5,054 nt of DNA from an uncultured Dysosmobacter sp. (GTDB lineage Bacteria; Bacillota; Clostridia; Oscillospirales; Oscillospiraceae). The stretch spans positions 1-5,054 of the forward strand of contig CAKTSC010000132.1 in assembly GCA_934597465.1 (NCBI GenBank). The letters are read 5' to 3'. Numbering within the stretch: the stretch's first letter is position 1; every line of letters starts with the position of its first letter. Made by a program: the position numbers and the translations under genes. Of this stretch, positions 1,620 to 4,641 are shown piece by piece. The notes beneath the pieces are model-generated. The model ran no database searches. It had not been told where the DNA came from and saw only the letters and a list, made by a program, of their open reading frames with translations.

Positions 1620-2822
1620 TTAGTTCGGACGGAAATAGGTGATGAAATCGACCGTGACAGAATTCCAGTTCACATACCTGCGTGCAAGTCTGGGATTATC
1701 ATAGCCATCTACGACTTTGAAGAAGTCATATGTGATGCCAGCGCCCGTAACATCAACATTGGGAACCAGGTAAGACGCCCACGCAAAAGCAGTGACAGAG
1801 TGATCCGTATACTGATCACTGCTGGCAATATTCAAAATGCACGGACGGCCATTCTGAATTTCGCCTTTGGCCAATCCAAAAGTAGTAAATGTCATACTCG
1901 TCACATTCAGGTTAAGGCCATAGTGCGCACAGCAAGCTCTGGCAAACGGCTGAAGTTTTCTAAGTGCCATATAATAATTCATAACGCCATCAGAGTCCCT
2001 GCGCGCATATCCCCCAGTCTCAGCGTAGCTTAAGCAATAATTTACAATACTGCTAAAGCTATAGCTGCTTCCCAGGTGGAACTTGATCATGGCTGCGGTC
2101 GCATAGACTGCGCAAGCGTTGCGCTCTGCAATCGTATACAGCGTGACAGAAGTCTCACCTGCACTTGCCGACCCCAGCAGCTGGAATTGAGATGCCGGAT
2201 AGAGACTTTTCAAATACTCCAGCGGATTATAAATGTAGTTGCCCTCTTTTCCCGTGGGAGTGGTCGTCTGGACGGAGTAGCCCGCTTCCTGATTCACAGA
2301 CTGCACCATGCGAACCATTGCCGCTCCCGCTCGGAAATTTTCCTGGGACTGAACGGAATTTCTTTCGGCGTTGATTTCTGCGGTTTCCCGTTTTTCTGTG
2401 CCGTAGTTCATCGGCCCATAGTAATAAATTTTTTCAGCCGCAGGTTCATCTTCCGCAAGGGCAAGCTGATTCGGTTCACACACCATGGCTGTTGCATCAT
2501 CCGAATACTCGGCAATCAACGGATAGCACAGATCCGCCGAAACGATCACATAACCTGCGGCCCCGTCAGACGTTTTCAACTGAACCAGGTACGCCGACAC
2601 CGTCTCGTTGTTATCGTACATCGGAACGATACGGTCAACCGTTGTTGTCATGTCCCACTGGGAATTCCCGATATTCCCCAAGACGAACAGCAGCGCGACC
2701 GTTACGGCAGTCTCTTCATCCATTTCGGGGGCATCCTCCGCTGCCAGGGCGGGGATGCCAAGGGTCAGACACATTACGATGGTCAGGAGCAGACTTATGA
2801 ATCGCTTTTTCCAGTTCTTCAT
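1620..2822 (-). CDS. Secreted papain-like (C39/C10-type) cysteine peptidase with N-terminal propeptide
   Basis: This 400-residue protein begins with a signal peptide (KKR, hydrophobic core 8-23, likely cleavage after Ala27 in ALA-AED). Residues about 35-115 resemble the Spi/streptopain-type propeptide, with GYVIVSAD at 90-97 and PLIAEYSDD at 101-109. A linker (about 120-195) follows, then the catalytic domain. NACAVYATAAMIKFH at 235-249 gives the putative nucleophile Cys237. IQNGRPCILNI at 322-332 and HSVTAFAW at 341-348 give the putative His341, and VVDGYDN follows at 370-376. This order (C-x3-A-x-A-M, I-x2-G-x-P, H-[SA]-V) is typical of clan CA C39-like and C10 peptidases. The Cys-His spacing of 104 is shorter than in streptopain. 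The ATG at 2822 has a weak AAAGGAA site at 2831-2837. The coding sequence is AT-richer (27 of 60 GC in 1921-1980) than the window flanks. The substrate is unknown, and it could be an inactive or binding homologue. Confidence 0.65.
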   Translation of the reverse strand: MKNWKKRFISLLLTIVMCLTLGIPALAAEDAPEMDEETAVTVALLFVLGNIGNSQWDMTTTVDRIVPMYDNNETVSAYLVQLKTSDGAAGYVIVSADLCYPLIAEYSDDATAMVCEPNQLALAEDEPAAEKIYYYGPMNYGTEKRETAEINAERNSVQSQENFRAGAAMVRMVQSVNQEAGYSVQTTTPTGKEGNYIYNPLEYLKSLYPASQFQLLGSASAGETSVTLYTIAERNACAVYATAAMIKFHLGSSYSFSSIVNYCLSYAETGGYARRDSDGVMNYYMALRKLQPFARACCAHYGLNLNVTSMTFTTFGLAKGEIQNGRPCILNIASSDQYTDHSVTAFAWASYLVPNVDVTGAGITYDFFKVVDGYDNPRLARRYVNWNSVTVDFITYFRPN

Positions 2823-2876: not shown

Positions 2877-3224
2877 TCAGGGGCAGGGCTTGGTGATACT
2901 CTGCGGGGTAAAGGCCTTGCCGTTGCTGGTGCCCACCAGGGTCAGGCGGTAGGTCTTGCCGCTGGTAACGGCAGTCGTTTCGCTGAAATTAACGTAGGAA
3001 GTACCGCTGGCATCCCAGCAGTCTATCAGGGTGGTGCCGCACCAGAGTTCCAGGGTGGCCTTGATCTGCTTACCGGCCTCGGAAACAGATGCGGTGCAAA
3101 TGGCGGTTGTTCCCTGAAAGCTTAACGTCATGCTAGGATGAGCTTCGCGGGCTTCCGCAGCACCAGCAATAACGGTCAGAGCCAACAGTGCGGCGGCCAG
3201 CAGGGGCAGGATTCGCTTGCACAT
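2877..3224 (-). CDS. Small secreted four-cysteine beta-rich protein, unknown function
   Basis: I cannot name this 115-residue protein. A signal peptide is clear (KR at 3-4, hydrophobic core 5-23, probable cleavage AEA-RE after residue 25), leaving about 90 mature residues. These alternate in a beta-strand pattern rich in Thr and Ser, as in an Ig-like sandwich. Four cysteines remain (43, 62, 69, 114), enough for two disulfides, and the protein ends in KPCP. The ATG at 3224 is chosen because AGGAGG lies at 3233-3238 with eight bases of spacing. A GTG at 3233 is in frame but is part of that ribosome binding site. The peptidase gene follows after 54 bases with no terminator or clear promoter between, so they probably share a transcript from the motif at 3258-3306. 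A structural surface role or a peptidase partner are both open. The chagasin-type inhibitor motifs are not visible. Confidence 0.7.
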   Translation of the reverse strand: MCKRILPLLAAALLALTVIAGAAEAREAHPSMTLSFQGTTAICTASVSEAGKQIKATLELWCGTTLIDCWDASGTSYVNFSETTAVTSGKTYRLTLVGTSNGKAFTPQSITKPCP

Positions 3225-3257: not shown

Positions 3258-3306
3258 TTATAAAACGCCAGTGGGGGCGAAAATTTGCAAAGAAAGGGAA
3301 AATTTT
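3258..3306 (-). promoter_or_regulatory. Putative ECF sigma promoter of the secreted cassette (copy A)
   Basis: Read on the minus strand: AAAATTTTCCC (3296-3306), seven bases, GCAAAT (3283-3288), fifteen bases, CGTTTTATAA (3258-3267). The same elements with the same 15-base spacer occur upstream of the sigma factor gene. A -10 region starting with CGT is typical of ECF promoters, whereas no sigma-A -35 box stands 17 bases before TATAA. The predicted start lies near 3250, about 25-30 bases before the start codon at 3224. The rest of this AT-rich gap (3307-3351) holds only weak A/T hairpins after the DUF4367 stop codon and no convincing terminator. Confidence 0.6.
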
Positions 3307-3351
3307 AGAAATATTTTTAATTTTGTCGAGAGTTACAAAAAATTTTTCATA

Positions 3352-4044
3352 TTATGGCGCTTTTGCTAAAGCTACGCTTTCAGCAACCTGGAGAATATCA
3401 CTTCGGCTCAGATTACTGTCCACACTAAATACCAAATTGGTTCTTTCATCAAACCAAAGAAGCGTACTGGAGCCGTTTTCCTCCGTGGTTCCATAGAAAT
3501 CTCCAGGGAGGTCATTCACCATAACGGCTTCATAGGTATACTCGCTGCCAGCGATCCAAGTGCGTCCATCATCACTCATGCGGCGATAAGCGAAAATCAC
3601 ACAGTTCAAACTGTCTGTCTCCTGGTAGACAGCCTCATAGGTTCCGGTATCTGCATCATTTGTTTCGTTCACCAGTGTGAACCCCTCCGGGATCCAACCG
3701 GGACGATAGCAGGGGAAGGCCGTGGAAGCATTGTCCCCCGTGAAACGGTAAAGCACGAAGTTCGTCCCAATTTCCCGGATCCAGGAGCGCAGGGCGTCCC
3801 GGGCCTGGGCGTCCACGCTGAGGAAGGTTCCCCCCGTGAGGAGGCAGACCAGCAGGAGGGCGGCGGCCCGCTGCGCGGCGGCGTGGAGCCAGGGGTGCTC
3901 CGCCTGCCGCCGCAGGCGCCGCAGCTTCCGGCGGAAGGCCGGGGAGGGCGGATAAGCCGCCCGGGGGTCATAGTCTTCCTCCAGAGCCTCCACAAACATC
4001 CGGCTGGAGTTCCGGGCCGCCTGACGCAGCATCACGTCCGTCAT
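3352..4044 (-). CDS. DUF4367-domain membrane protein, probable anti-sigma factor or sensor
   Basis: This 230-residue protein has a cytoplasmic N-terminus of about 56 residues, rich in Arg (FRRKLRRLRRQ at 37-47). One membrane helix follows at about 58-77. The extracellular part contains a DUF4367-like domain at about 112-226, including CYRPGWIPEGF at 112-122 and ILQVAESV near the end. In Clostridia such proteins are commonly encoded directly after an ECF sigma factor and are thought to hold it at the membrane (family knowledge and inference). Here the ATG overlaps the sigma stop codon as ATGA (4041-4044), showing translational coupling. The gene changes composition in the middle. The 5' part is very GC-rich (48 of 60 in 3841-3900). 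The part encoding the extracellular domain is AT-rich (24 of 60 in 3421-3480). This may mark an exchanged sensor domain. No zinc-binding HxxxCxxC anti-sigma motif is present. Confidence 0.8.
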   Translation of the reverse strand: MTDVMLRQAARNSSRMFVEALEEDYDPRAAYPPSPAFRRKLRRLRRQAEHPWLHAAAQRAAALLLVCLLTGGTFLSVDAQARDALRSWIREIGTNFVLYRFTGDNASTAFPCYRPGWIPEGFTLVNETNDADTGTYEAVYQETDSLNCVIFAYRRMSDDGRTWIAGSEYTYEAVMVNDLPGDFYGTTEENGSSTLLWFDERTNLVFSVDSNLSRSDILQVAESVALAKAP

Positions 4045-4556
4045 TGCGCATCCTCCCTTTCATAGATCTCCTGCAAATGCTTCTTCGCCTTCCGGTGCAG
4101 GCGGGTCACGGCATCGTAGGAGAGGTTCAGCATGGGGCCGATCTCCTTGAGCTCGTAGCCGTGGGCATACTTGAGCCACAGCACCTGCCGCTCCGCTGCC
4201 GGCAGGCGGAGCAGGCAGTCCGCCAGGCGGTCTTCCCCCTGGGGCTGTGTCTCGATGCCCCGCCAGTCCTGCAGCGGCACCGTGGGCCGCCGCTGACGGC
4301 GGCGCAGCTGGTCGATGGCCCTGCTCTCAACAATTAAAACGACGAAGGCCTTGGTTTTTTGCGAGACCGGCTCCGAAATTTTTGAAATATTTTTCGCAAG
4401 GTACAAAAACGCCTCGTGAACGGCGTCCTCCGCGTCCTCCGGCTGGCGCAGCAGCCGGAAGGCCGTGTGGAACATCAGTCCCTGATAGGCCTCGTAGATC
4501 CGGACGAACTTGGATCGCTCGGACTCCGCCTCGATGCCGGTGACATAGATCAGCAT
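4041..4556 (-). CDS. ECF-type RNA polymerase sigma-70 family factor
   Basis: This is a 171-residue alternative sigma factor that would direct RNA polymerase to a small set of promoters. Region 2 spans about residues 14-85. It includes YEAYQGLMFHTAFRLL (21-36) and the DAEDAVHEAF core-binding and -10 recognition segment (41-50), ending in the basic RRRQRR at 85-90. Region 4 spans about 110-165, with LPAAERQVLWLKYAHGYELK (118-137) and the helix-turn-helix IGPMLNLSYDAVTRLHRKAK (139-158). Length and two-domain layout fit ECF factors, and region 3 is absent. ATG 4556 has AAGGAGG at 4564-4570, seven bases upstream. The gene overlaps the DUF4367 gene by four bases. Two promoters can be seen upstream: an extended -10 at 4663-4671 and the ECF-like motif at 4594-4641. 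This suggests basal plus self-activated expression. A locally AT-rich stretch at 4355-4410 encodes the end of region 2. Confidence 0.9.
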   Translation of the reverse strand: MLIYVTGIEAESERSKFVRIYEAYQGLMFHTAFRLLRQPEDAEDAVHEAFLYLAKNISKISEPVSQKTKAFVVLIVESRAIDQLRRRQRRPTVPLQDWRGIETQPQGEDRLADCLLRLPAAERQVLWLKYAHGYELKEIGPMLNLSYDAVTRLHRKAKKHLQEIYEREDAQ

Positions 4557-4593
4557 CCGCCCGCCTCCTTCCGCCGGGGCAAACTACCCCACT

Positions 4594-4641
4594 TTATAAA
4601 ACGATGCGGCCCGCCGATATTTGCGCGGGCGGGAAAATTTT
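4594..4641 (-). promoter_or_regulatory. Putative autoregulated ECF sigma promoter (copy B)
   Basis: On the minus strand: AAAATTTTCCC (4631-4641), six bases, GCAAAT (4619-4624), fifteen bases, CGTTTTATAA (4594-4603). All three elements match copy A at 3258-3306 exactly, and only the upstream gap differs by one base. The predicted start near 4586 leaves a leader of about 30 bases before ATG 4556. Copies of one promoter in front of an ECF gene and of a neighbouring operon are the usual sign of autoregulation. An inverted repeat GCCCGC/GCGGGC (4609-4614 with 4625-4630) flanks the GCAAAT element in this copy only. Confidence 0.6.

Follow-up and report, generated by a model that had tools for sequence, protein, structure and literature searches.

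What would switch on an operon that encodes a sigma factor, a putative brake on that sigma factor and a secreted output, and could the sigma factor itself be the answer? The question is raised by the window considered here, i.e., the whole stretch of DNA that was analyzed, 5,054 nucleotides from an uncultured Dysosmobacter sp. (contig CAKTSC010000132.1). Its minus strand carries, in this order, an ECF-type sigma gene, a DUF4367 gene, a gene for a small secreted protein (SSP), and a gene for a 400-aa secreted protein, along with three promoter-like sites:

4594..4641, minus strand: P1, predicted ECF promoter upstream of the sigma gene, AAAATTTTCCC-N6-GCAAAT-N15-CGTTTTATAA (exact match; also in the relative L001)
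4041..4556, minus strand: ECF-type sigma factor gene, 171 aa (Pfam Sigma70_r2 and Sigma70_r4_2, TIGR02937)
4334..4362, minus strand: Pint, predicted ECF promoter within the coding sequence of the sigma gene, GCAAAA-N15-CGTTTTAA (codon constraint in relatives; covariation with P2)
4052..4057, minus strand: GGGAGG, the predicted DUF4367 ribosome-binding site, 7 bases ahead of the start ATG (sequence)
3352..4044, minus strand: DUF4367 protein of 230 aa, predicted to be a membrane anti-sigma factor (PF14285, E 1e-12)
3258..3306, minus strand: P2, predicted ECF promoter before the SSP gene, AAAATTTTCCC-N7-GCAAAT-N15-CGTTTTATAA (exact match; L001 orthologue; family motif)
2877..3224, minus strand: SSP, small secreted protein of the beta-sandwich type, 115 aa when started at ATG 3224 (homologues and structure model)
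1620..2822, minus strand: 400-aa secreted protein (one full-length homologue, P0121, 97%)

The sigma protein matched Sigma70_r2 at residues 20–90 and Sigma70_r4_2 at residues 109–161 of its 171 aa, with no hit for region 3 in a Pfam/NCBIfam profile scan, and hence consists of regions 2 and 4 only; it is to two domains that the definition of ECF factors was later narrowed, according to the available part of PMC8103513. The start of the DUF4367 gene overlaps the sigma stop by 4 bases, and we infer from this position and from the domain that its product is an anti-sigma factor. For SSP, a start at ATG 3224, which is preceded by AAGGAGG, is likelier than one at GTG 3233, as given in the open reading frame list (118 aa, 3233–2877). 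The gene of the 400-aa protein follows after a gap of 54 bases and is probably co-transcribed with SSP. Neither a defence-system search nor a plasmid search (3.1 kb) gave a match.

The initial annotation had described two copies of a shared motif on the minus strand, at 3258–3306 and 4594–4641, and both are present there. In P1, GCAAAT occupies 4619–4624, CGTTTTATAA 4594–4603, and AAAATTTTCCC 4631–4641, while the same parts of P2 lie at 3283–3288, 3258–3267, and 3296–3306, respectively. GCAAAT-N15-CGTTTTATAA has exactly two matches in the window, the same two are recovered with up to three mismatches, and none was found in any of 200 dinucleotide shuffles. The 15-base spacer between GCAAAT and CGTTTTATAA at both sites, with unrelated spacer sequences, was likewise confirmed. 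The motif had also been called three-part, which stands insofar as AAAATTTTCCC occurs at both sites and does not in that its distance to GCAAAT varies, with 6 bases in P1 vs. 7 in P2; the palindromic AAAATTTT, upstream at both sites, may be better taken as an A/T-rich, UP-like flank. One copy, P1, does precede the ECF sigma gene, and the ECF-like CGT noted at the −10 recurs as CGTT in P1, Pint, and P2, and as the core of a family motif discovered blind (see below). Pint, the third copy in the window, had been overlooked.

For sigma relatives, GTDB contigs were scanned with an alignment of 31 sigma sequences, and the best 80 of 499 confirmed loci were taken. Only one of these best 80, L001, encodes a sigma factor more than 60% identical to that of the window (76%). 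Before its sigma gene, at the same place as P1, L001 carries TTTTCCCATCCCGC-GCAAAT-N15-CGTTATAAG, and after its DUF4367 gene lies the counterpart of P2 (L001:5650–5720), which reads TTTTTCC...GCAAAT-N16-CGTTTTACC and is followed by the start of an SSP orthologue and then by the contig end. Because L001 matches at the places of both P1 and P2, the −35 variant of the window is present at both places in two genomes. A loose motif pattern was uninformative in the partial genome of L001 (26 places vs. 24 for the control). The proposal of ECF promoters read by the neighboring sigma factor is supported by the comparison with orthologues suggested in the initial annotation, although few relatives have a recognizable motif upstream of the sigma gene. 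A TGTC-type motif was found there in at least 9 of the best 80 of 499 loci and in at least 6 of 115 genes, both of which are lower bounds because −35 variants such as that of the window are missed; in the 115-gene survey, open reading frames were moreover started at the first possible start codon, so that some upstream sites were missed.

A related motif precedes secreted-protein genes across the family. In 971 kb of the best 80 of 499 loci, not counting the coding strand of the sigma gene, there are 54 instances of TGTCC-N18-CGTT and 24 of TGTCC-N19-CGTT, vs. 2–16 at each of the 20 other spacings between 8 and 29. Many of the TGTCC sites in these best 80 loci lie ~33 bases before a gene for a 114–125-aa secreted protein, and these proteins are homologous to SSP of the window. 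With the window counted, SSP homologues were identified at 37 distinct loci, and 36 of these have a same-strand sigma gene within 2.5 kb upstream. Blind motif discovery upstream of 34 of these homologues (the window, L135, and L080 were left out) returned tGTCCaAAAtc.CC.CCTTtcttCGTT, ending in CGTT, with a log-likelihood of 412 vs. 94–108 in 8 letter-shuffled sets that were run with fewer starts, and sites of ≥15 bits were present in 29 of the 34 regions. Judged by their letters, the window sites are a −35 variant of this predicted promoter motif, tGTCCaAAAtc...CGTT, with which they have the CAAA core and CGTT in common, with one extra base between. Because the window −35 differs, their scores against the family matrix are low (2.9 and 4.7 bits). 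When the window was scanned with a flexible-spacer matrix, Pint reached 11.1 bits, P1 9.6, and P2 5.2; the best match, at 1629 on the minus strand (16.0 bits), is probably due to chance.

Further copies of the motif were seen elsewhere in some loci. In L009 and L015, several more are distributed over both strands no further than 8 kb from the sigma gene, and some of these precede membrane or secreted proteins; two minus-strand copies in L058 (7920 and 13020) lie 32–33 bases before long membrane proteins that look, by eye, transporter permease-like.

The intragenic motif lies at approximately position +192 in the sigma genes of relatives. On a first reading, these matches were taken for a coincidence of coding, which was overturned by codon counts in sigma genes with the peptide CPKT: of these 33 genes, 32 use TGT for the Cys and 32 use GTT for the last Val (52% and 24%, respectively, in sigma genes overall), and TGTCC-N18-CGTT is found in 29, vs. 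1.5 expected. A codon-bias scan of 121 distinct sigma genes (GC3 0.21–0.93) ranked codon 73 highest, with 73 GTT observed vs. 25.4 expected, followed by codon 4 (Tyr) and codon 72 (GTC/ATC), and the smoothed peak fell at 74. Across these 121 genes, TGTCC-N18-CGTT occurs at the intragenic site in 45, whereas 1000 synonymous-codon shuffles gave a mean of 3.75 and a maximum of 11; no other part of these genes contains it. CGTT alone is found at the site in 69 genes (mean 7.9, maximum 19 in the shuffles) and is absent from it in 52. When a single gene per 55% identity cluster was retained, the counts were 15/44 for TGTCC-N18-CGTT (1.4 expected, maximum 6) and 25/44 for CGTT (3.0 expected, maximum 10), and among 55 GC-rich sigma genes they were 4 (0.4, maximum 4) and 18 (2.5, maximum 8), respectively.

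Loci fetched later, through a class-level search of 291 genomes (11 matched) and a family search of 58 genomes (3 matched), supplied 14 distinct sigma genes, three of which (L221, L222, and L234) were already among the 121. In the 11 new genes, the enrichment in TGTCC-N18-CGTT was weaker than in the 121 (2 genes, mean 0.19, maximum 2, p 0.010), 3 genes had CGTT where predicted (mean 0.80, p 0.039), and TGTC with either CGTT or TGTT, a criterion chosen post hoc, was present in 8 (mean 1.7, maximum 7, p 0.0005). TGTCAC stands at the intragenic place in 6 of the 11, once with CGTT and five times with TGTT.

Pint and P2 vary together between loci. GCAAA is found in both sites of the window, TGTCCGG in both the SSP promoter and the sigma gene of L078, L077, and L057, where the peptide is CPET, GCACCAAA in both sites of L139, GTCACAAA in both sites of L119 and L130, and CATCAAA in both sites of L140, with spacings one base apart. 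In permutations that ignore kinship, the 203 of 256 −35 letters identical between Pint and P2 in 32 pairs compare with a mean of 169 and a maximum of 190, the 90 matches in 16 distinct −35 boxes with a mean of 70 and a maximum of 91 (20,000 permutations, p 1e-4), and the 27 of 32 pairs with identical −10 tetramers with a mean of 21.4 (p 0.0004). Where the P2 −10 is not CGTT, Pint matches it at 3 of 6 sites (CGTA in L115 and L124, GGTT in L080) and differs in L117, L135, and L148; the −35 match is poor in L061, L117, L069, and L024. Among the six sigma loci with TGTCAC, five (L223, L227, L228, L229, and L235, not L225) have a second TGTCAC-N-[C/T]GTT ~1 kb downstream, and in those five, several of which resemble one another, the first letter of the −10 is the same at both sites, T with T and C with C. 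Behind the second site, L223 and L228 encode a small secreted protein with a weak match to the SSP profile.

The −35 box was also compared with the recognition helix of the sigma factor. Five of the 37 SSP loci were left out, namely L021, which lacks a sigma gene upstream, and L039, L147, L118, and L138, without a ≥15-bit site in the piece taken, although the motif survey of loci did reveal a site in both L039 and L021; the boxes of L002, L003, L130, and L135 were shifted by one base for their longer spacer, the first letter of the L025 box was supplied (T in the motif survey), and the window box was entered by hand. Across the remaining 32 loci, −35 distance correlated with recognition-helix distance at r 0.40, and at 0.28 once region 2 was accounted for (p 0.0005 for both, in permutations that ignore kinship), vs. 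0.09 for region 2 after correction for the helix. Other parts of the protein behave similarly, as sigma segments 14–26, 50–74, and 128–140 display plain correlations of 0.34–0.38 with the −35, and segment 62–74, among these, encodes the intragenic site. TGTC is found in none of the 7 members with a V/I-R/H-S-L helix and in 24 of 24 other members except the window, a pattern which may correspond to few events because the 7 may form one clade. A candidate rule linking an R-K recognition helix to TGTCAC was dropped, as L224 and L226 carry this helix yet have TGTCCC. The sites in L001, the conserved SSP promoter, and the correlation between −35 and helix lend comparative support to the proposal, already made in the initial annotation, that the promoters would be read by the neighboring sigma factor.

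Intragenic CGTT is far commoner than a motif before the sigma gene, and the region after the anti-sigma gene has the motif in at least 27 of 110 cases (control 1). A predicted promoter for positive autoregulation precedes the sigma gene in the window and L001. Six genes have a TGTC motif upstream, and intragenic CGTT is retained in two of them and missing from four; L049, L056, L070, and L121 have the upstream motif without intragenic CGTT, as though one wiring had been swapped for the other. In the 114 relatives for which the open reading frame after the sigma gene was located, this frame overlaps the sigma stop by four bases in 76 and is preceded by an SD-like core in 93. A large regulon was not apparent in 59 sigma-positive genomes around L001, where the strict pattern TGTCCAAA-N15-CGTT matched 21 times vs. 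11 for the reversed control, nor in 60 genomes without a sigma match (10 vs. 13). In 22 genomes picked for TGTCC-class loci, the strict pattern matched 40 times vs. 5; 12 of these 40 matches lie inside a sigma open reading frame, and 9 share the sequence of a site that precedes an SSP gene, including one (in G393) assigned by identical letters only. All six matches in G384 fall within 8 kb. From these counts, the regulon looks small, with about half of it accounted for by the operon itself.

We consider it likely that P1, P2, and Pint are promoters read by the adjacent ECF sigma factor, and that they drive the sigma factor, its DUF4367 brake, and the secreted output. A signal acting on the DUF4367 protein would free the sigma factor, which would fire P2 to yield SSP and the 400-aa protein as output. 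It would also fire Pint, ~300 bases before the DUF4367 gene, and so provide extra anti-sigma factor without extra sigma factor, i.e., a built-in brake. Through P1, the sigma factor of the window would further produce more of itself, a positive autoregulation. In most relatives examined, the sigma factor would drive brake and output and not itself, because only Pint and/or P2 are recognizable there. With slightly more caution, we think it probable that, in one family of clostridial ECF sigma genes, the codons contain the target promoter of the encoded sigma factor, that this embedded promoter makes the anti-sigma brake and has largely replaced positive autoregulation, and that part of the region 2 peptide (CPKT, CTKT, CHKT, CPET, or SQKT) changes with every shift in the DNA specificity of region 4. 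If true, the protein sequence of the sigma factor would be shaped by promoter specificity.

Other readings of the same sites were weighed. P1 and P2 could be promoters while binding at the intragenic site leads to no productive start of transcription, so that this site would act as a sigma-dependent pause or as a decoy titrating holoenzyme. Promoter-like intragenic sequences can indeed be bound but silent, or cause pausing, as stated in the available portion of PMC10771440; however, the full −35, spacing, and −10 of the intragenic site are kept and vary with P2, and the SD-like core of the DUF4367 gene fits an internal transcript, and we regard this reading as unlikely. It appears very improbable that the codon constraint serves the protein, its translation, or an RNA structure, with a merely coincidental likeness to a promoter: synonymous shuffles, which preserve both protein and codon use, fail to reproduce the motif, and where the peptide varies between clades, the DNA tracks the P2 of the clade in question, even though the peptide around the site is itself conserved and other codons, e.g., Tyr 4, are biased as well.

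We give still less credence to the window motif being the operator of another regulator, or the product of a recent duplication of an upstream region, unrelated to the window sigma factor. An operator is at odds with the fixed spacing and the ECF-type CGTT, with a −35 that correlates more with the recognition helix than with region 2, and with strict matches being enriched in TGTCC-class genomes and not in the 60 genomes without a sigma match, whereas the palindromic AAAATTTT at both sites would suit either version; recent duplication of one upstream region is contradicted by the unrelated spacers of P1 and P2.

The predicted arrangement resembles the autoregulated ECF sigma/anti-sigma operons in the available part of PMC8103513 in its two-domain sigma factor, adjacent predicted anti-sigma factor, CGT-type −10, and predicted self-control. 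It differs from what is described there in its −35, which is of the TGTCC, ACCAAA, TGTCAC, or GCAAAT type instead of ‘AAC’, and in the recurrent site predicted to be self-recognized, which lies inside the sigma gene and not before it. In the accessible text of the respective sources, the RpoE-dependent micL promoter lies inside cutC (PMC8103513), the sigV promoter inside cabp (PMC13171946), and SigH promoters inside C. difficile operons (PMC7438776). As in these cases, a promoter within a coding sequence would serve a small RNA or downstream gene; unlike them, as far as those excerpts go, the promoter here lies in the gene of the sigma factor that is predicted to use it, and codon choice and covariation allowed the site to be followed across many species. 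The promoter consensus of SigV, CsfU, and CsfT of Clostridioides difficile remained to be identified, according to the part of PMC7438776 available; these are, like the present ones, clostridial ECF factors, and the family studied here has a member in C. difficile strain CD160 (L075).

Our literature search, mostly outside subscription papers, found no earlier description of this motif or of a promoter code for this clostridial ECF family, nor of an ECF sigma gene that contains a sigma-dependent promoter. The predicted code combines TGTCC, TGTCAC, ACCAAA, or GCAAAT with CGTT or a near variant, and the predicted feedback design places the promoter of the antagonist within the sigma gene itself. 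Protein and promoter information would thereby reside in the same bases, and the two appear to move together over evolution.

Finally, we considered the output proteins. SSP has conserved cysteines at positions 46 and 117 (118-aa numbering), the second in at least 90% of sequences, and its structure model is a confident beta-sandwich (mean pLDDT 87) whose best PDB matches are generic Ig/FnIII-like sandwiches only (TM ~0.5). None of six SSP homologues reached the cut-off of a Pfam or NCBIfam model, and SSP (2877–3224) and its homologues form a conserved secreted beta-sandwich family with the pattern SFSGTTAxC...C. The secreted proteins encoded behind SSP, for which signal peptides were flagged with a crude regular expression, differ between genomes (L002, L003, L006, L015, L019, L024, L030, L036, and L079); most of the 10 scanned match no family, and two (L003 and L006) match Peptidase_C39_2. 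Because of these two, the designation of the 400-aa protein as a peptidase in the initial annotation is plausible but unproven. The protein itself had no NCBIfam or Pfam match and nothing below E 0.89 among PDB sequences, and its structure model was unusable (pLDDT 31). Its signal peptide, MKNWKKRF...LGIPALA (2739–2822, minus strand), is near-identical in the unrelated secreted proteins P0122–P0125, while P0121, its only full-length homologue, starts differently, a pattern resembling one 5′ end on different bodies.
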